From Clostridiales bacterium (GTDB lineage Bacteria > Bacillota > Clostridia > Lachnospirales > Lachnospiraceae): a stretch of 37,004 nt of DNA. Positions 2,149-12,720 of the stretch are shown one piece after another. Location: NCBI GenBank assembly GCA_029006795.1, contig JAQXGQ010000138.1, forward strand, positions 1-37,004. Reading direction: 5' to 3'. Position 1 is the first letter of the stretch, and each line of letters begins with the position of its first letter. The notes beneath the pieces are model-generated. The model ran no database searches. It was given only the letters and a program-made list of their open reading frames with translations, and was not told where the DNA came from. A program made the position numbers and the translations under genes.

Positions 2149-2210
2149 GTCAACATTGTGCGAGGAATGGTTCGCAAATATGAGAGATGAAAACAGGAAT
2201 AGGAGTTTTT

Positions 2211-4778
2211 ATGGGTGTAATGAGTAAAATCTTCGGAACGCACAGCGAGCGGGAATTAAAGAGAATTTATCCTATCGTTGACAAGGTGGAGTCTTATCGG
2301 GACACCATGATTGCACTTTCCGATGAAGAATTGAAAAACAAGACAAAAGAATATAAAGAACGTTTTGAAAAAGGAGAGACACTAGATGACCTTTTACCGG
2401 AGGCGTATGCTACCGTCCGTGAGGCGGCAAGAAGGGTTCTTGGCATGGAGCATTACCGGGTGCAGATTATCGGTGGTGTGATTTTACATCAGGGACGTAT
2501 TGCTGAGATGAGAACCGGTGAAGGTAAGACTTTAGTTTCCACCCTGCCGGCATATTTGAATGCTTTGGAAGGAAAGGGAGTCTGCATCGTAACTGTCAAT
2601 GACTATCTGGCAAAGCGTGATGCTGAGTGGATGGGACAGGTACATGAATTTTTGGGCTTGAAAGTCGGTGTAGTATTAAATTCCATGACTAATGATGAGC
2701 GTCGCGATGCTTATAACTGTGATATTACTTATGTTACAAACAATGAGCTGGGCTTTGATTACTTAAGAGATAACATGGTCATCTACAAGGAACAGCTGGT
2801 ACAGAGAGGACTTCATTATGCCATCATTGATGAGGTGGACTCCGTTTTAATCGACGAGGCGCGTACACCGCTTATTATTTCAGGACAGAGCGGTAAATCC
2901 ACACGTTTATATGAGGCATGTGATATTTTAGCAAGACAGATGCAGCGTGGTGAAGATGTACCGGAATACTCTAAAATGGATGCCATCATGGGAGTAGAGC
3001 AGGAGGAGACAGGAGATTTCCTTGTCAATGAAAAGGACAAAGTAGTCAGCCTGACTCAGGAAGGTGTAAAGAAAGTAGAACAGTTCTTTAAGATTGAGAA
3101 CCTTGCCGATGCGGAAAACTTAGAGATTCAGCATAATGTGATTCTTGCTTTAAGAGCACATAATCTGATGTTCCGCGACCAGGATTATGTGGTGCAGGAT
3201 GACCAGGTTATGATTGTCGATGAGTTTACCGGACGTATCATGCCGGGACGCCGTTATTCCGACGGTCTTCATCAGGCAATTGAAGCGAAAGAGCATGTAA
3301 AGGTAAAAAGAGAGAGCAAGACCCTTGCGACCATTACCTTCCAGAATTTCTTTAATAAATTTGAGAAGAAGGCCGGTATGACTGGTACAGCGCTGACGGA
3401 GGAGAAAGAGTTTCGTGATATTTACGGCATGGACGTTATTGAGATTCCGACAAATAAGCCAGTGCAGCGTGTTGATAAGCAGGATGTAGTTTATAAGACT
3501 AAGAAAGAAAAATATCATGCAGTGGTAGAGGAGGTAAAGGCAGCCCATGCAAAAGGACAGCCGGTACTGGTAGGTACAATTACCATTGATATTTCCGAAA
3601 CCATCAGTGATTTGTTAAAGAAAGAGGGAATTCCGCATACCGTATTGAATGCAAAGTTCCATGAAAAAGAAGCAGAAATCGTAGCGGGAGCCGGTGCTCA
3701 CGGTGCTGTTACCATTGCTACGAATATGGCAGGTCGTGGTACGGATATTAAATTAGATGACGAAGCAAAGGCAGCCGGAGGATTGAAGATTATCGGTACA
3801 GAGCGGCATGAGTCCAGACGTATCGACAATCAGCTACGTGGTCGTTCCGGTCGTCAGGGAGATCCGGGTGAGTCCCAGTTCTTTATTTCCCTTGAAGATG
3901 ATTTGATGCGTCTGTTCGGTTCTGAAAAATTAATGGATGTATTTAATACCTTAGGTGTTCCGGAAAATGAGCAGATTCAGCATAAAATGTTGACCTCAGC
4001 GATTGAAAAGGCACAGACAAAGATTGAGGGGAATAACTTTGGTATCAGAAAGAATCTGTTAGAGTATGATCAGGTAATGAATGACCAGAGAGAGATTATT
4101 TATGCGGAGCGTTTGCGCGTGTTAAACGGCGAAAACATGAGGGATGTCATTTTCAAGATGATTACCGACCGGGTAGAGAGCTGTGTAGATACCTGTATTT
4201 CTTCTGATATTCCAAAAGATGAATGGGATTTAAATGAGTTGAATCAGCTATTGCTTTCCATTATTCCGTTAGAGGCAGTGACTGCGGAGGATGTGGATAG
4301 TGTTAAGAATAATAAGGAACTGAAACATCTGTTAAAAGAAAGAGCAGTCAAACTTTATGAAGCGAAGGAAACTGAGTTCCCGGAGCCGGAGCAGTTCAGA
4401 GAGTTAGAGCGTGTGGTTCTCTTAAAAGTCATTGACCGTAAATGGATGGATCATATTGATGATATGGATCAGTTACGCCAGGGTATCGGTTTACAGGCAT
4501 ACGGACAGCGAGACCCGTTAGTCGAGTATAAGATGGCGGGCTTTGATATGTTTGATGATATGATTGCGAACATTCAGGAGGATACCATTCGTCTGCTGTA
4601 TCATGTGAAGATTGAGCAGAAGGTAGAGCGTGAGCAGGTTGCAAAAGTAACCGGTACGAATAAGGATGAGAGCGCTAATGCACCAAAGAAACGTGCAGCA
4701 GCAAAGATTTATCCGAATGCTCCATGTCCATGTGGTTCTGGTAAAAAATATAAACAGTGCTGTGGCAGAATGGCATAG
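2211..4778 (+). CDS. secA: Preprotein translocase ATPase SecA
   Basis: SecA is the cytosolic ATPase that pushes unfolded preproteins through the SecYEG channel. The 855-residue protein shows the Walker A segment [13 protein letters not shown] near residue 100, the DEAD-type box [21 protein letters not shown] near 210, helicase motifs such as [14 protein letters not shown] near 510 and [16 protein letters not shown] near 545, and a C-terminal zinc-binding SEC-C tail [14 protein letters not shown]. The frame is open 24 bases further upstream, but AGGAG at 2201-2205 favours the ATG at 2211. Length is close to that of other Firmicute SecAs. It is transcribed alone between its own promoter and a strong terminator. 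It looks intact. Confidence 0.98.
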
Positions 4779-4794
4779 TTACTCAAAATACAAG

Positions 4795-4843
4795 AAAGCT
4801 TTATATCGTTTCGGATAAAAAGAAACGATATAAAGCTTTTTTT
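4795..4843 (+). terminator. Rho-independent terminator after secA
   Basis: AAAGCTTTATATCGTTTC (4795-4812) pairs with GAAACGATATAAAGCTTT, an 18-bp perfect stem around a GGATAAAAA loop, followed by a T run ending at 4843. It separates secA from the decayed kinase gene. Confidence 0.92.
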
Positions 4844-4868
4844 GTATATAATGTATGCAAAAACGTGA

Positions 4869-5912
4869 AATAAAGATGGTAATTATGTAATTATAAACTA
4901 TAATGAAAATGAGGAACAACTTTTAGAAACTGCAATGAGTCGCACGAAAAAGGCGGTATATGCACTGCCTTTTATATGCAGTCAGATTGGAGAGGAGCGC
5001 TATGTAAGAACATGGTCTATCAGAAACAGTTATGAGGTATATTGTGACAGGCGAAATGAGCTGATTACGTTGAATGAGGATTATCCCGAATACATAGGCA
5101 GGTTGTATGAAGTGTATGATATGCAGGGGTATCTCAAGGCATATGCAAGGTCTCTTATGAACGATACGATAGAAGCAGGGGACAGTGTATATCAGAAAAA
5201 GATTCCTATGCTTGCTAGTGTTCCCATTGCGGTAATTGTATTTGGAATAGTATTGTTTTGGAGCATGATGAAACTGGAAACTCTTATGAATAAGACCATC
5301 ATTTCACCGGTGTTAGAGCTTGTGCATGCTGCACAGAAAATTGCAGCAAATAATTTCTTTGTGGAGGATGTAGTGGTGGAAAACTAGGATGAGTTAGGGG
5401 AACTTGCACTGAGTTCACTTTTTCGTTACAATTTAAAGACTCCGCAGGCGGAGGTGCCGTTAGTGCAAGAACTTAAAGTGGTAGCAGATTATATGTATTT
5501 GCAGCAGATGCGTTTCGGTAGCAGGATTGATTACAAAGTTGACTGTCAAGTGAATGAAGAATTAGTGATGGTTCCGACGTTTACTTTTCAGCCTTTAGTG
5601 GAGAACGCCATTATTCATGGTCTTTCACCAAAGGAGGAGGGGGGAACGATTCGAATTCGTATCTGGCAAAGGGGAAAAAGGCTGTATATTACAGTCGGAG
5701 ACGATGGCGCCGGAATGGAAAAAGAGCAGCTGATACAGCTTAAGGAGCGGCTATGTCAGGAGAAAGAAGGGGATGTTGGCATTGGACTTGGAAATGTATA
5801 TCGCAGAATTTGTGCGATGTATCAGGGAAGTATAGTAGAAGTATACAGCAGGAAGAATGCTGGAACGGTTATTCGGATTGACATACCGCAGAATTTTTCA
5901 AAGAAAAAATGA
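4869..5912 (+). pseudogene. Degraded YesM-type sensor histidine kinase
   Basis: One reading frame holds pieces of a LytS/YesM-family membrane kinase (His_kinase plus HATPase). The open frame starts after a stop at 4866-4868 and has no good start codon. A remnant of the extracellular domain is followed by a membrane helix (MLASVPIAVIVFGIVLFWSM) and a HAMP-like linker. An in-frame TAG at 5385-5387 interrupts the linker, which resumes as DELGELAL. The frame then jumps to SSLFRYNLK..., the region that normally lies after the phospho-acceptor NPHFLYNT block, so the histidine block has been deleted in frame. The C-terminal ATPase part is well kept: TFQPLVENAIIHG (N-box) and DDGAGM, IGLGNVYRR (G-boxes). 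Family members are about 550-600 residues. No signalling function is expected. Confidence 0.85.
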
Positions 5913-5939
5913 TGTAGGACAGGAGAACGGAGGAAACTT

Positions 5940-7028
5940 ATGTACCGCATACTAGTAGCAGATGATGAACCGATTGAGAGAACGGTAGTGAGTAAGACGA
6001 TTCAGAAATATTTTCCGGAACAACTGGCAGTGATATTGGCGACAGCAGTAGTGGTTGTGAGCATTATGGCATTGGTGTGCTGTTATCTGACACCGGAGGA
6101 AAAGGAACCGGAGTTTGTATTTTCCTATGCGGAAAATCAGGGGGAGGATTATCCTACGACATTGGGCGCAAAGTACTTTTCGGAATTGGTGGAAAAGAGG
6201 ACGGAGGGAAGAATTAGAATTTTAGTACAGGCAGAAGGAACGCTTGGAAATGAGAAGGAAGTAATTTTGCAGATGAAGTATGGAGGAATTGATTTTGCAA
6301 GAGTATCATTGTCACAGTTAGCGGAATATGCCCCAGAGTTGAATGTACTTCAAATGCCATATCTTTATGAAGATTCGACTCATATGTGGAGAGTTTTAGA
6401 TGGGGAAATCGGGGCAAAATTTTTGAATGGAATCAGTGATGACGAATTAGTTGGATTGTCCTGGTATGATGCGGGAGCTAGAAATTTTTATAATTCTAAG
6501 AAGCCTATTAGCTGCCTTGAGGATATGGAAGGGATGAAAATCCGTGTGCAGGAGTCGGAACTGATGGAGGATGTGATAGGTGCATTGGGTGCTGTTGCTG
6601 TTCCTATGGGATATGCCGATGTTTATTCAAGTTTAGAGCGTGGCATCGTAGATGGGGCAGAGAATAACTGGCCGTCTTATGAATCCATGAGTCATTATGA
6701 GGTGGCAAGGTATTATACAGTGGATGAACATAACAGAGTACCGGAGATGCAGATTTGTTCCGGTTATACATGGGAAAAACTTTCGGAAAAAGATCGGGCG
6801 ATTATCATGGAGTGTGCAAAAGAATCTGCACGATATGAGCGTGAACTCTGGACAGAGAGAGCGCGGGAATCAAAAGAATTTGTAATGTCTCATGGGACAG
6901 AAGTGGTGGAATTGACAGCAGAAGAACGTAAGCGGTTTCGGAATGCTGTCATGGGAGTATATGAAAAATACTGTGGGGATTCAATGGATGTAATTGAAAA
7001 AATTACAGCAGAGGGAGCCGTACGGTAG
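5940..7028 (+). CDS. Chimera: response-regulator N-terminus fused to a TRAP solute-binding protein (DctP family)
   Basis: Residues 1 to about 28 (MYRILVADDEPIERTVVSKT) are the start of a YesN-type receiver domain, including the acidic DDE pocket but not the phospho-acceptor Asp expected near residue 54. From about residue 29 the sequence becomes the signal/anchor helix of a TRAP-transporter binding protein (AVILATAVVVVSIMALVCC), then a mature DctP domain. That domain includes ENQGEDYPTTLGAKYFSELVEKR, GSLGxE-like GTLGNEKEV, FYNSKKPISCLEDMEGMKIRV and YSSLERGIVDGAENN. The frame is open throughout and has a strong GGAGG site, so a protein may be made, but the charged receiver stub before the signal helix may impair export. 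No dctQ or dctM permease genes follow; uxuA comes next. The ancestral order was probably kinase-regulator-dctP-dctQ-dctM-uxu. It may be a functional pseudogene. Confidence 0.85.
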   Translation: MYRILVADDEPIERTVVSKTIQKYFPEQLAVILATAVVVVSIMALVCCYLTPEEKEPEFVFSYAENQGEDYPTTLGAKYFSELVEKRTEGRIRILVQAEGTLGNEKEVILQMKYGGIDFARVSLSQLAEYAPELNVLQMPYLYEDSTHMWRVLDGEIGAKFLNGISDDELVGLSWYDAGARNFYNSKKPISCLEDMEGMKIRVQESELMEDVIGALGAVAVPMGYADVYSSLERGIVDGAENNWPSYESMSHYEVARYYTVDEHNRVPEMQICSGYTWEKLSEKDRAIIMECAKESARYERELWTERARESKEFVMSHGTEVVELTAEERKRFRNAVMGVYEKYCGDSMDVIEKITAEGAVR

Positions 7029-7076
7029 AAAGATACATTGATGGAAAGAGGATAAGATTAAGGGAGGGTTTTACAA

Positions 7077-8150
7077 ATGGAAATGACGTTAAGATGGTAT
7101 GGGAGTAAGCATGATTCTGTTACGTTAGAGCAGATTAGGCAGATACCGGGAGTAACAGGTGTGATTACAACACTCTACGATTCTATGCCAGGGGAAGTAT
7201 GGAGCGAAGAAGCTATAGCAGCGATGATTGCGGAAGTGGAGTCAGCAGGGCTTCATGTCAGCGGTATTGAGAGTGTCAATATCCATGATGCTATTAAAAT
7301 CGGTACGCCCGACAGAGAAGAATACATTGATAATTATATTACAACTTTAGAACACCTTGGAAAAGCAGGTATTCACATGGTATGTTATAATTTCATGCCA
7401 GTGTTTGACTGGACGAGAACTGAACTGGCGAGAAAAAGGCCGGATGGCTCTACTGTGTTAGCTTATACCCAGGAGGCGGTGGATGCAATCAAGCCGGAAG
7501 AAATGTTTGCGTCTATTGGCAAGGATACCAATGGATTTGTGATGCCGGGCTGGGAGCCGGAGCGTATGGCGCGGGTGAAAGAATTGTTTGAGATGTACCG
7601 GGATGTGGATGATGAGAAACTATTTGCTAACTTAAAATATTTCCTGGAGCGGATTATGCCGGTGTGTGATAAATATGATATTAATATGGCAATTCACCCG
7701 GATGACCCGGCATGGAGTGTATTTGGCCTGCCGCGTATTATTATAAATAAGACAAATATTCTGCGTATGATGCAGATGGTGGATAATCCACACAATGGTG
7801 TCACGTTCTGTTCCGGTTCTTACGGGACAAATTTAGAGAATGATTTGCCGGATATGATACGTTCGTTGAAGGGCAGAATCCATTTTGCTCATGTGCGGAA
7901 TTTGAAATTTAATTCCTCCACAGACTTTGAGGAGGCGGCACATTTGTCTTCGGATGGAACCTTTGATATGTACGAGATTATGAAAGCGCTTTATGAGATT
8001 GGATTTGACGGCCCAATTCGTCCGGATCATGGGAGAATGATTTGGGGAGAAGTTGCAATGCCAGGGTATGGACTTTATGACCGTGCACTTGGAGCAACAT
8101 ATTTAAATGGGTTGTGGGAAGCAATTGAGAAATCGCAGACAAGAAAGTAA
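7077..8150 (+). CDS. uxuA: Mannonate dehydratase
   Basis: It dehydrates D-mannonate to 2-keto-3-deoxygluconate in glucuronate breakdown. The 357-residue protein starts MEMTLRWYGSKHDSVTLEQI, typical of the family, and carries the TIM-barrel metal-site segments NMAIHPDDPAWSVFGLPRI (about 201-219), TFCSGSYGTN (about 243), HFAHVRNLKF (about 262) and IRPDHGRMIWGE near 320. A GGAGGG site sits about 9 bases before the ATG. It looks intact. It sits between the chimeric TRAP binding protein and uxuB, and the enzymes appear better preserved than the sensing and uptake genes around them. Confidence 0.96.
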   Translation: MEMTLRWYGSKHDSVTLEQIRQIPGVTGVITTLYDSMPGEVWSEEAIAAMIAEVESAGLHVSGIESVNIHDAIKIGTPDREEYIDNYITTLEHLGKAGIHMVCYNFMPVFDWTRTELARKRPDGSTVLAYTQEAVDAIKPEEMFASIGKDTNGFVMPGWEPERMARVKELFEMYRDVDDEKLFANLKYFLERIMPVCDKYDINMAIHPDDPAWSVFGLPRIIINKTNILRMMQMVDNPHNGVTFCSGSYGTNLENDLPDMIRSLKGRIHFAHVRNLKFNSSTDFEEAAHLSSDGTFDMYEIMKALYEIGFDGPIRPDHGRMIWGEVAMPGYGLYDRALGATYLNGLWEAIEKSQTRK

Positions 8151-8216
8151 GAAAATATGGATTCGGATAGAGTGAGATTGCAATATGGTGTCAAAAATGC
8201 AGAAATGAGGTGTGGT

Positions 8217-9824
8217 ATGAGATTATCAGAAGAAGGAATCAAGAAGCTGGACTGGAAAGAAAAAGGTTATGGCGTGCCGGAATATGACAGAGCTGCAGTA
8301 CGAAAACACACTGTAGAGGAACCATTTTGGATTCATTTTGGAGCTGGCAATATTTTTCGGGCATTTCAGGCAAATGTGGTACAAAATTTGTTGAATACAG
8401 GAAAATTAGATCGCGGACTTATTGTGGCAGAGGGTTATGACTATGAGATTATCGAGAAGATAAATCGCCCTCATGATGATCTTGGAATTGCAGTAACTTT
8501 AAAGGCAGACGGAAGTATTGAAAAAAATATTGTGGGCAGTGTGGTGGAATCTCTGTGTCTTGATAGTGATAATGCAAAAGAATATGCCAGACTGCGTGAA
8601 ATTTTTACAAAGAAATCTCTGCAGATGGCGACATTTACCATCACCGAGAAGGGATATAGTCTGGTGAACGGAAAAGGAGAGAGATTACAGATGGTGGAAG
8701 AGGACTTAAAAAACGGACCGAAAAAACCGGAAAGTTATATCGGAAAGGTTGCCTCTTTGCTGTATGAGCGTTACAGAAACGGCGAACTTCCTATTGCAAT
8801 GGTAAGCATGGACAACTGTTCACACAACGGGGATAAGCTGTACGATGCCATAGAGACATTTGCAAAAGGATGGCAGGAGAGAGGGTTAGTAGAGGGAGAT
8901 TTCCTGGGATATATACAAAATGGGGAAAAGGTAAGTTTCCCGTGGACCATGATTGACAAAATTACACCGAGACCAGATAAGAAGGTAGAGGAAATCCTTG
9001 TTGCAGATTGGGGGGAGGAACTGCATCCGGTTATTACCGGAAAAAATACATATGTGGCGCCTTTTGTCAATGCAGAGGAGTGTGAGTATCTGGTTATCGA
9101 AGATGATTTCCCGAACGGAAGGGAAGCATTAGAACAAGGAGGTTTTGTTTTTACGGATAGGGAGACAGTAGATAAAGTGGAAAAAATGAAAGTGTGCACC
9201 TGCCTGAATCCGCTGCATACGGCATTGGCTGTATTTGGCTGTTTGCTGGGATATGAATTGATTTCAGAGGAAATGAAAGATAAGGAGTTAAGCAGCCTTG
9301 TAAAAACGATAGGGTATAAAGAAGGACTGCCGGTTGTAGTTGACCCGAAGATACTGTCTCCGAAACAGTTTATTGATGAGGTGGTGAATAAGCGTATTCC
9401 GAATCCGTTTATGCCGGATACGCCACAGCGAATCGCCACTGACACTTCACAAAAACTAGCTATCCGTTTTGGGGAAACAATCAAAGCATATCAGAAATCA
9501 GAGGAACTTGATGTTACGCAGCTTGAGAAGATACCACTGGTATTTGCAGGCTGGCTTCGTTATCTGATGGGAATTGATGATCGGGGAGAAAAGTTTGAAT
9601 TAAGCCCGGATCCGCTACTTGCGGTGGTCTGTCCAGTGATGGAAAAAATCCCCTTTGAAGAAACAAAAAACATCTCTGCTGTAAAGGAGATACTTTCTAA
9701 TGAAGACATTTTTGGTGTGAATTTGTATGAAGCCGGATTGGGTGAAACTGTGGAGAATTATTTTAGAGAAATGAATGCCGGGATAGGTGCAATTCGTAAG
9801 ACGTTGGAAAAATACTGCAATTAG
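8217..9824 (+). CDS. uxuB: Fructuronate reductase / mannitol dehydrogenase family
   Basis: It probably reduces D-fructuronate to D-mannonate with NADH, feeding UxuA next door. The N-terminal Rossmann part carries FWIHFGAGNIFRAFQANVV, a hallmark of the mannitol dehydrogenase family. The C-terminal domain has the catalytic block KVCTCLNPLHTALAVFG, and MDNCSHNGDKL lies between. The frame extends to an ATG at 8157 with no ribosome binding site. The ATG at 8217 has TGAGG 6 bases before it and gives MRLSEEGIKKLDW, a usual family start; the product is then 535 residues. Other family members act on tagaturonate or mannitol, but adjacency to uxuA favours fructuronate. It appears intact. Confidence 0.92.
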   Translation: MRLSEEGIKKLDWKEKGYGVPEYDRAAVRKHTVEEPFWIHFGAGNIFRAFQANVVQNLLNTGKLDRGLIVAEGYDYEIIEKINRPHDDLGIAVTLKADGSIEKNIVGSVVESLCLDSDNAKEYARLREIFTKKSLQMATFTITEKGYSLVNGKGERLQMVEEDLKNGPKKPESYIGKVASLLYERYRNGELPIAMVSMDNCSHNGDKLYDAIETFAKGWQERGLVEGDFLGYIQNGEKVSFPWTMIDKITPRPDKKVEEILVADWGEELHPVITGKNTYVAPFVNAEECEYLVIEDDFPNGREALEQGGFVFTDRETVDKVEKMKVCTCLNPLHTALAVFGCLLGYELISEEMKDKELSSLVKTIGYKEGLPVVVDPKILSPKQFIDEVVNKRIPNPFMPDTPQRIATDTSQKLAIRFGETIKAYQKSEELDVTQLEKIPLVFAGWLRYLMGIDDRGEKFELSPDPLLAVVCPVMEKIPFEETKNISAVKEILSNEDIFGVNLYEAGLGETVENYFREMNAGIGAIRKTLEKYCN

Positions 9825-9873: not shown

Positions 9874-11048
9874 ATGGATTTTTTGAAGGAAAGAGATAAG
9901 AAATTACAGTTTTTTGTAGTTATGGAGTATTTCTGATTAATGGTATGTTGGCATTATCTATTGGCTCACTGCTTCCGTTTATCCGGGATGCAAGAGGATT
10001 AGATTACGCATTTTGTGGACTTATTGTGAGTTTGCATTCTGTGGGTAACTTAATTTCAAGCTTTGCAGCAGGAATGTTACCGGTGTTTGTGGGAAGAAAA
10101 AAGAGCATTCTTCTGTTCAATGCTTTTTTTACAATCTCTTATCTTCTGATTATTTTTGGGAATAATAATTTGTGTATTGCATTTGCGTTTTTTATGACAG
10201 GACTTGCCAGAGGCGCTACCAGTAATTTTTGTAATACAACCATTAATAGTTTAGCACCGGGAAAAGCATGGATTATCAATGGACTGCATGCCATGTTTTC
10301 TATAGGAGCGTTCACGTTTCCGATATTGTTGACTGTACTCACGGCAGCAGAGCCTGCTCAATGGATTTATGCCTGCTATTTTATGCTGGCAATGGGGATT
10401 TTGAGCTGGATACTGTACTATATGATTCCCATAGAAAATGCCAAAATAGAGAGACAGGAGAAAGGAAGTAATTTTGATTTCTTTAAAGAGCCATTGTTCT
10501 ATCTTTGTACCATGACATTGTTCTTCTATCTCTGTGCAGAACAGGGAGTCATTGGCTGGATGATTACATACTTCAAGGATACAGGACTTCTTAATGCGTC
10601 CCTTTCTCAGATTACGGCAAGTGTGCTGTGGATTATGATACTGGCAGGCCGGTTGACGACGGCATGGTTATCCACAAAAATGCAAAAGGGGCGTTTGCTT
10701 CTTGTGATGGGAGTGGGAATTGTGATTTTCTTCTTCTTGTTGTTGTTTAGCAGAAGTACACCGTGGATTGCGTTTGGCATCATGGGGTTTGGCTACAGTA
10801 TGGCAGGAATTTATCCGACTACCGTGTCGTTTTCGGGGAATCTTATTCAAAAGTATCCGGTTGCCTGGAGTTTTATTTTAACGCTGGCAAGTATTGGTTC
10901 TATTGTGATGCCGTCAGTGATAGGAAGGATTGCGGAGAACGCTGGGATTTTCTATGGCATGAGTTCTATTGTAGCAGTAGTGTTCATTGATATGGGATGT
11001 ATTATCAGTCTGGTAGCATATGTGCGCAGACATCATGTAGAAGAATAG
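9874..11048 (+). pseudogene. MFS transporter with N-terminal frameshift
   Basis: This is a 12-helix-type major facilitator, probably for a hexuronate or related sugar given its place after uxuB. A good start exists at 9874 (MDFLKERDKKLQFF, with GGAGA upstream), but that frame stops at 9934-9936. The rest of the protein (YGVFLINGMLALSIGSLLPF...) continues in another frame from 9921. One missing base between about 9910 and 9921, near a run of six T's (9910-9915), would explain it. The in-frame ATG at 9945 has no ribosome binding site and would lose part of the first helix. The remainder is clean and includes the loop 2-3 segment GRKKS. It could be a real lesion, slippage at the T run, or a sequencing error. 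Confidence 0.7.
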
Positions 11049-11067: not shown

Positions 11068-11409
11068 ATGAAAACAGAAAAAAATCAAATCTGGAATTTT
11101 AATAAGGATATTGAACTTGAAAATTGTGCAGAGGGTGTGAACCGTAAGATTCTTGCGTATGCAGACGAATTAATGTGCGTGGAAAACCATTTTGAGAAAG
11201 GAGCAATTGGTGCGTTGCACCATCATCCTCATACGCAGATTACTTATGTGGTATCCGGACAGTTTGAATTTGAGATTAATGGGGAGAAAAAAGTGGTGAA
11301 CCCTGGGGATGCCCTGTTAAAAAGAGATTCGATAGAGCATGGATGCGTTTGCTTAGAGGAAGGGATTCTGTTAGATATTTTTACACCGATGCGGGATGAA
11401 TTTGTTTAA
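11068..11409 (+). CDS. kdgF: Cupin-domain protein, likely KdgF (unsaturated uronate linearisation)
   Basis: This 113-residue single-cupin protein has the metal-binding motif HHHPHTQITYVVSGQFEFEI (about 51-70) and the second cupin motif PGDALLKRDSIEHGCVC (about 81-97). The pattern of RKILAYADELM, then HPHTQITYVVSG, then EHGCVC, then DIFTPMRDEF is what I recall for KdgF, which converts 4,5-unsaturated uronate monomers to the open-chain keto form in pectin and alginate breakdown. Its position at the end of the uxu locus fits. A GGAAGG site precedes the ATG, and it follows the MFS gene by 19 bases. A generic cupin remains possible. Confidence 0.75.
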   Translation: MKTEKNQIWNFNKDIELENCAEGVNRKILAYADELMCVENHFEKGAIGALHHHPHTQITYVVSGQFEFEINGEKKVVNPGDALLKRDSIEHGCVCLEEGILLDIFTPMRDEFV

Positions 11410-11482: not shown

Positions 11483-11520
11483 TCGGGCAAATAAAAATGA
11501 AAAACGGAGGAAGCAAAACG

Positions 11521-12720
11521 ATGTATCAGGTAAGAAATGTGACAGACGAAATTTTATGGATTGGTGCCAGCGACAGACGATTGGCTCTTTTTGAGAACAT
11601 TTTTCCAATACCACGAGGAGTTTCCTATAACTCTTATGTATTGTTAGATGAGAAGACCGTGTTGCTCGACACAGTAGATGCGTCCGTTAGCGGACAGTTT
11701 TTTGAAAATTTAGAGTATGCTTTAGGTGACAGAAACTTAGATTATCTGGTGGTTAACCACATGGAGCCGGATCACTGTGCCATGATTGGTGACATTGTCC
11801 ACAGATATCCAGAGGTAAAAGTAGTAGGGAATGCCAAAACCTTTGGGATGATGAAACAGTTTTTTGGTACAGATTTTGCAGAGAGAGCGATTACAGTAAA
11901 AGAGGGAGATACCTTAGAGACAGGAAGTCATACCCTGCATTTTGTGATGGCACCGATGGTGCACTGGCCGGAAGCAATGGTGACTTACGATGCGAAAGAC
12001 AAGGTGCTGTTTTCTGCCGATGGGTTTGGATCCTTTGGAGCATTAAATGGAAATATTTTTGCGGATGAAGTGGATTTTGATCGTGACTGGTTAGATGATG
12101 CAAGACGTTATTACACAAACATTGTGGGAAAATATGGCGCATCCGTACAGGCATTATTAAAGAAAGCAGCAGGACTTGATATTGCTGTAATTTGTCCGTT
12201 ACATGGTCCAATCTGGCGTGAGAATTTAGGTTATATTCTGGAAAAATACCAGAAGTGGAGCACCTATGAGGCAGAGGATAAAGCGGTTGTGATTATGTAT
12301 GCCTCCATGTATGGCGATACCGCTTCTGCAGCAGATGCCCTTGCCGGAGCGTTAGCAGAACGGGGATTGAAAAAAATTGCTGTCTATGATGTTTCGAATA
12401 CCCATGTGTCGGAATTAATCAGTGAGATTTTCCGTGCGAGCCATCTGGTATTCGCAGCCCCGACCTATAACGGAGGAATTTATCCGGTAATGGAAAATCT
12501 TCTCAATGATATGAAGGCTTTAGCAGTACAGAAAAAAACAGTGGCTTTGATGGAAAACGGAACATGGGCAGCTATGACTGCAAAACAGATGCGGGAAAAA
12601 TTAGCGGAACTTAAGGATGTGACGGTATTAGATACCCAGATAACCATCAAATCAGCAATGCTTGCAGACCAGAAAAAAGAGTTAGATGAATTAGCGGATG
12701 CGATTATGGAAACAATATAA
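11521..12720 (+). CDS. fprA: A-type flavodiiron protein (FprA)
   Basis: Flavodiiron proteins reduce oxygen to water or nitric oxide to N2O in anaerobes. The 399-residue product has a lactamase-fold diiron domain with ligands in H80-x-E-x-D-H85 (NHMEPDH), H148 (MVHWPEAM), D167 (FSADGFG) and H228 (CPLHGP). A flavodoxin domain follows from about 255 (VVIMYASMYGDTASAAD) with a second FMN-binding stretch FAAPTYNGGIYP. No rubredoxin domain is attached, so it is class A and needs an external rubredoxin or similar donor. The frame opens at 11497, but GGAGG lies 10 bases before the ATG at 11521, and MYQVRNVTDEILWIG is a typical start. The sulfite/nitrite reductase follows after 26 bases, so the two are probably co-transcribed. 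Confidence 0.95.
   Translation: MYQVRNVTDEILWIGASDRRLALFENIFPIPRGVSYNSYVLLDEKTVLLDTVDASVSGQFFENLEYALGDRNLDYLVVNHMEPDHCAMIGDIVHRYPEVKVVGNAKTFGMMKQFFGTDFAERAITVKEGDTLETGSHTLHFVMAPMVHWPEAMVTYDAKDKVLFSADGFGSFGALNGNIFADEVDFDRDWLDDARRYYTNIVGKYGASVQALLKKAAGLDIAVICPLHGPIWRENLGYILEKYQKWSTYEAEDKAVVIMYASMYGDTASAADALAGALAERGLKKIAVYDVSNTHVSELISEIFRASHLVFAAPTYNGGIYPVMENLLNDMKALAVQKKTVALMENGTWAAMTAKQMREKLAELKDVTVLDTQITIKSAMLADQKKELDELADAIMETI

Follow-up and report, generated by a model that had tools for sequence, protein, structure and literature searches.

The open reading frame at 5940 to 7028 of the window, by which we mean the whole analysed stretch of 37,004 nucleotides from a Clostridiales bacterium (contig C138 of the draft assembly G000), joins the start of a YesN-type response regulator to the TRAP-type solute-binding protein DctP. 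This fused frame is very probably a by-product of operon decay, and the block of genes in which it lies is best read as what remains, shortened and at a new place, of a uronate TRAP/two-component operon of Roseburia type. The junction exists in the sequence as given. The frame runs from an ATG at 5940 to a stop codon at 7026-7028 and encodes 362 amino acids, which begin with MYRILVADDEPIERTVVSKTIQKYFPEQ and continue with LAVILATAVVVVSIMALVCCYLTPEEKEPEFVFSYAENQ. It comprises residues 1-28 (at most 31) of the regulator, the helix of DctP and the complete mature DctP. A previous sequence-only reading had proposed this composition, which is confirmed by the open reading frame, tblastn, Pfam and a switch in DNA identity. 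The parts of the fused frame are as follows:

5940 to 6032, forward strand, regulator start (YesN-type), residues 1-28, at most 31, from tblastn and DNA comparison
6024 to 6110, forward strand, signal/anchor helix given to dctP, internal in the fused frame, from its position in relatives
6111 to 7028, forward strand, mature DctP (solute-binding protein family 7), from Pfam and 68.5-79.5% identity to eight same-genus relatives

Searches identified the stub as a regulator start (tblastn) and the rest as DctP (Pfam). In the Pfam search of the fused frame, DctP was the sole domain (residues 65-344, 7.5e-82) and no receiver-domain match to the short stub was returned. The DctP part belongs to the family by its score against PF03480 (275.3 bits, cut-off 23.4, profile positions 3-283 of 286) and also exceeds the cut-off of TIGR00787 (213.8 vs 175.05). 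When 30 of 55 loci were queried by tblastn with the regulator start, 23 gave a match and seven did not, and residues 1-28 showed 59-86% identity to the starts of full regulators across 22-28 residues. The best named matches to the fused protein lie on contigs titled Roseburia and other Lachnospiraceae.

At the DNA level, comparison with seven relatives revealed 57-94% identity to regulator DNA and 13-35% to dctP DNA at 5940-6020, and 71-89% identity to dctP at 6102-6137. The switch from regulator to dctP thus falls between 6021 and 6102, with the breakpoint at about 6021-6040; it cannot be placed to a single base because the stretch 6030-6092 has low identity to both genes (0.16-0.44 for the regulator, 0.25-0.43 for dctP). 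The helix (residues 29-47, mean Kyte-Doolittle hydropathy 2.93) is poorly conserved and was assigned to dctP by its position, which is that of the dctP helix of relatives, and not by a sequence match. As proposed earlier, most of the regulator gene is deleted: the 28 to 31 residues that remain compare with 257-281 amino acids in relatives and hold neither a full receiver domain with the phospho-acceptor Asp nor an AraC-type DNA-binding domain. It also holds true that dctP now stands behind the start site of a regulator, with a GGAGG at 5929-5933 upstream of the ATG, and that a charged extension precedes the helix, namely a 28-residue segment with four K/R and five D/E.

The fusion is absent from relatives. 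The 23 locus rows with a match to the regulator start represent 19 distinct loci, four rows repeating contigs already counted, and in none of the 19 was the fusion found; the search for the same fusion across many genera, named beforehand as the observation that would speak for a real protein family, thus came out negative. A protein family having this fusion was rejected on the same count. In all 19 loci the regulator is full-length and separate from dctP, and in L058 both its receiver domain and its AraC-type DNA-binding domain are present. The dctP gene starts between -38 and +38 bases after the regulator in 16 of the distinct loci; in L039-L041 a different open reading frame follows the regulator and the DctP match lies farther along. 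The DctP match of L039 extends to query residue 9, and it proved to be an ordinary dctP start with the regulator stub absent.

An in-frame deletion within the regulator gene had been proposed. However, the deletion spans two genes. Counted without gaps, regulator codon 31 and the corresponding point of dctP lie 745-778 bases apart in six relatives and 710 in one; division of this distance by three leaves a remainder of 0 in one relative, of 1 in four and of 2 in two. Because the distance is divisible by three in only one of the seven, a single-gene in-frame deletion is the wrong description and a two-gene deletion the right one. Since the remainders take all three values, it is probably by chance that the deletion left regulator stub and dctP in a shared frame.

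The deletion is one among several lesions in a broken and relocated operon, which lies in the window as follows:

2187 to 4778, forward strand, secA, left neighbour of the inserted block, from comparison with relatives
4896 to 5912, forward strand, relic of a YesM-type sensor histidine kinase with the ATPase domain retained, from Pfam and alignment to relatives
7077 to 8150, forward strand, uxuA, mannonate dehydratase, 92-97% identity to the three relatives having uxuA there
8157 to 9824, forward strand, fructuronate/mannitol-type dehydrogenase, uxuB-like, from profile and matches in relatives
9874 to 11048, forward strand, MFS transporter gene, frame-shifted at about 9910-9916 in alignment with seven relatives
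11068 to 11409, forward strand, cupin protein, final gene of the block, from Pfam and matches in relatives
11497 to 12720, forward strand, ODP-family/flavodoxin protein, adjoining the inserted block on the right, from Pfam and comparison with relatives

The kinase is damaged in three ways when compared with seven relatives. The first approximately 80 residues, including the apparent first membrane helix, are gone; a TAG at 5385-5387 interrupts an otherwise single frame; and 83 codons are lost at about 5403-5408, which correspond to the beginning of the His_kinase domain, where the motif of the acceptor His lies (NPHFLF or HPHFLF in relatives). The 83-residue loss is equal in all seven loci measured out of eight, L063 being unmatched by the motif pattern. 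The remaining parts are 64% and 73% identical to the kinase of L058, and a sensor part, a His_kinase domain with its acceptor His and an ATPase domain are no longer united in one frame. No second copy of the kinase or of the regulator was found in the assembly; the best other matches are 30% and 38% identical, respectively, with none above 41% for the regulator. At columns that are invariant in relatives, unique changes number 7 of 156 in DctP (relatives 0-13), 0 of 60 in the C-terminal part of the kinase (relatives 0-5) and 5 of 46 in its N-terminal part (relatives 0-6). Since DctP and the C-terminal part of the kinase lie within the range of relatives, either the damage is recent or the sequence is faulty; the damage in the N-terminal part, close to the top of the range, need not be recent. 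Outside the 28-codon stub, pS reached 0.68-0.93, which brings synonymous sites close to saturation for dN/dS, and the UxuA and UxuB rows of this comparison are based on three relatives. The MFS gene has an open reading frame that begins at 9945 and lacks the first 24 residues. The MFS frameshift (9874-9945) lies in a T run and is either a genuine lesion or a base-call error.

The block lies between secA and the ODP gene. These two are adjacent in the genomes of five of seven relatives (the ODP protein of G058, one of the five, being only 54% identical) and lie on separate contigs in G027; in the window they are separated by 6.7 kb that run from the kinase relic through the cupin gene. After secA, a terminator-like hairpin with a T run was read by eye at about 4795-4845; its loop exceeds the limit of the terminator scan, which therefore does not list it. 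In five of eight relatives the operon is situated to the right of an aldo/keto reductase (identified by Pfam in L058, elsewhere by BLAST match or N-terminal sequence). The counterpart of this reductase in G000 (77% identity) lies on contig C81, where it is followed by a 563-amino-acid protein unmatched among the relatives' open reading frames compared. Farther on come matches (45% and 54%) to genes that flank the operon on its right in L058 and L063. No operon genes were detected on C81 at the reductase site at E < 0.01. Because the block splits the secA/ODP pair and the reductase site on C81 lacks operon genes, the block either changed its place or was gained a second time, already truncated, and the data fit both. 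In another genome, too, extra genes were observed at this place: in L080 (G053 C10), other open frames separate secA from the ODP gene.

The transport genes are missing from the assembly as well. DctM (PF06808) and DctQ (PF04290) gave no matches in G000, DctQ being present in all 11 relatives searched, and no intact second copy of DctP was found elsewhere in the assembly. A working TRAP transporter with both DctQ and DctM was thus not found in G000; since the draft (2.58 Mb, 181 contigs) has a completeness of 86.7%, the missing genes may be unassembled.

In eight same-genus relatives (L058-L065) the operon is intact. The order is dctP1-dctQ-dctM-small protein-yesM kinase-yesN regulator-dctP2, followed by uxuA-uxuB, an MFS gene and a cupin gene; the Pfam identities were taken from L058 and that of dctP1 from L059. 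The small protein before the kinase has 155-172 amino acids in the six of eight loci that list it and had no Pfam match in the one tested. uxuA and uxuB follow dctP2 in L059, L060 and L064, and the MFS gene is present in seven loci (absent in L061). The cupin gene was likewise found in seven; L065 had no cupin open reading frame passing the filter, and in its genome cupin pieces were found in two frames. All eight loci have dctP1 and dctP2, the latter immediately after the regulator, and they therefore show the layout of a three-component system, in which a second binding-protein gene stands beside kinase and regulator. The two binding proteins differ at their start. By a simple lipobox pattern of our own, none of the seven dctP2 proteins examined has a lipobox, and their n-region has 3-12 residues with two to five K/R and zero to two D/E; in dctP1 the script detected a lipobox in seven of eight, and the eighth, L058, shows one in another frame. 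The dctP1 gene of L058 (G046) is split by a frameshift into 4149-4406 and 4403-5239, which might reflect a failing transport binding protein or a draft error.

The following course of events would account for the window. To judge from the layout and from known three-component systems, the role of DctP2 in relatives is probably to bind an extracellular uronate and to contact the kinase, which then switches on uptake and breakdown. In the lineage of G000, the 3' part of the operon would have been placed between secA and the ODP gene, the 5' part not being found in the assembly, and the kinase would have been broken by loss of its N-terminus, the TAG and the loss of 83 codons. A deletion of about 710-780 bases, as estimated from relatives, would have removed the regulator from about residue 29 together with the first dctP2 codons, and joined the remaining dctP2 in one frame to the regulator start. 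Translation from the regulator ATG would then yield a DctP2 whose basic n-region is replaced by a cytosolic tail of 28 residues. Membrane insertion of such a protein is plausible because lysines 19 and 23 near the helix favour an orientation with the N-terminus inside and the C-terminus outside. The earlier suggestion of an anchored product is therefore plausible with respect to the helix, but the fusion did not cause it: the unfused dctP2 of relatives has the helix without a lipobox, so that the ancestral protein was probably held in the membrane by its helix before the fusion arose. Judging from the sequence, the fused protein may be made and anchored in the membrane, but both of its partners, the kinase and the regulator, are broken. 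Because the kinase lacks its sensor start and acceptor His and only about 28 residues of the regulator are left, this route could not transmit a signal. With no intact partner, the fused protein is most likely useless to the cell. It most likely formed recently, and recent damage fits with remnants that still look conserved.

Two other explanations have to be weighed against decay of the operon. It is improbable that a misassembly or consensus error in the draft made the junction and that the actual genome has separate genes. The fragmentation of the draft into 181 contigs and the location of the MFS frameshift within a T run, a common error site, are what such an explanation would predict, but it needs several independent errors, namely at the two block edges, the kinase loss, the TAG and the regulator/dctP join, in a contig without N. 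Moreover, the longest repeated words overlapping the five checked places have 11-14 bases (repeats within the window), which is short for assembler collapse. Slightly less probable still is a working new protein, a uronate-binding protein with a cytosolic tail and a membrane anchor that would act for some other sensor or transporter. The open 362-residue frame with its good ribosome-binding site, the intact DctP whose best PDB matches bind uronates, and the strong helix, preceded by K19 and K23, would suit this idea. Against decay it counts that the DctP part is undamaged and that neither the internal kinase loss nor the regulator/dctP join closes the frame, a possible hint of selection for the open reading frame; by our own estimate, two frame-keeping joins arise by chance in about 1 of 9 cases. 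However, the fusion occurs in no relative, the neighbouring genes are broken and the assembly yielded neither DctQ nor DctM. Furthermore, promoter-like sites at 4700-7100 do not exceed background (4 observed, 6.8 expected), whereas terminator-like sites do (4 observed, 1.3 expected; one on the forward strand, inside the kinase relic). As a product of operon decay, the fusion matters little, being one more join of neighbouring genes and not a new kind of protein. It nevertheless calls for caution, as automatic annotation would probably label the fused frame an intact DctP.

The best PDB matches of the mature DctP, 4X8R (4.7e-76) and 4N8Y (4.2e-72), were solved with glucuronate and galacturonate, and the neighbouring uxuA-uxuB genes agree with a uronate ligand. 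Both are annotated as TRAP transporter proteins, unlike the fused frame, and the likeness concerns the mature part and its predicted binding of uronates. A survey (PMC9602780) in which the DctP family is predicted to bind dicarboxylates only speaks less for this ligand.

The intact three-gene unit of relatives is more interesting than the fusion itself. Based on comparison with known systems, the DctP2 of relatives is probably a helix-anchored co-sensor beside a separate transport lipoprotein. The chances are evenly balanced for the wider proposal that, in Roseburia and other Lachnospiraceae, the anchored DctP2 is a sensing-only uronate protein of the TRAP family that works with YesM/YesN beside the transport lipoprotein DctP1, and that the genome of the window is a natural loss-of-function case with the sensor stranded on a regulator start. 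Our literature searches found no study joining TRAP transporter, Roseburia, two-component and glucuronate, or TRAP transporter, YesN and galacturon. The pairing of YesM/YesN with a protein of the TRAP family inside a uronate operon would add a new form to the known kinase-serving binding proteins, which concerns the relatives and not the window.

Binding proteins that serve kinases instead of transport are known. The XylFII-LytS system has a YesN-type regulator, DctB of Bacillus subtilis is itself DctP-like, and the kinase of DctB-DctS-DctR belongs to another family. According to PMC10384115, the binding protein CuaD of the CuaDSR system of Ruminiclostridium cellulolyticum serves the kinase, and the regulator induces the transporter operon. 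As in the relatives studied here, the genes for a class-I kinase and an AraC-type regulator are accompanied by one for a further solute-binding protein, which is not the one used in transport; however, CuaD is a Family 1 lipoprotein that binds cellobiose beside an ABC transporter (PMC10384115), whereas DctP2 is TRAP-type with a plain helix and no lipobox. In the window, by contrast with CuaDSR, kinase and regulator are broken. XylFII-LytS of Clostridium beijerinckii likewise pairs a sensing solute-binding protein with a kinase and uses another binding protein for uptake, but XylFII belongs to another binding-protein family and its ligand is xylose (PMC10384115). DctB-DctS-DctR of B. subtilis is described in PMC6978683 as a tripartite system for C4-dicarboxylates, in which an accessory membrane co-receptor cooperates with the kinase and DctA; the partner transporter of DctB is thus DctA, in which it differs from the system considered here. 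The conserved kinase-regulator-anchored DctP unit of relatives, partly beside uronate genes, is a candidate TRAP-type co-sensor of gut Lachnospiraceae that lends itself to testing.
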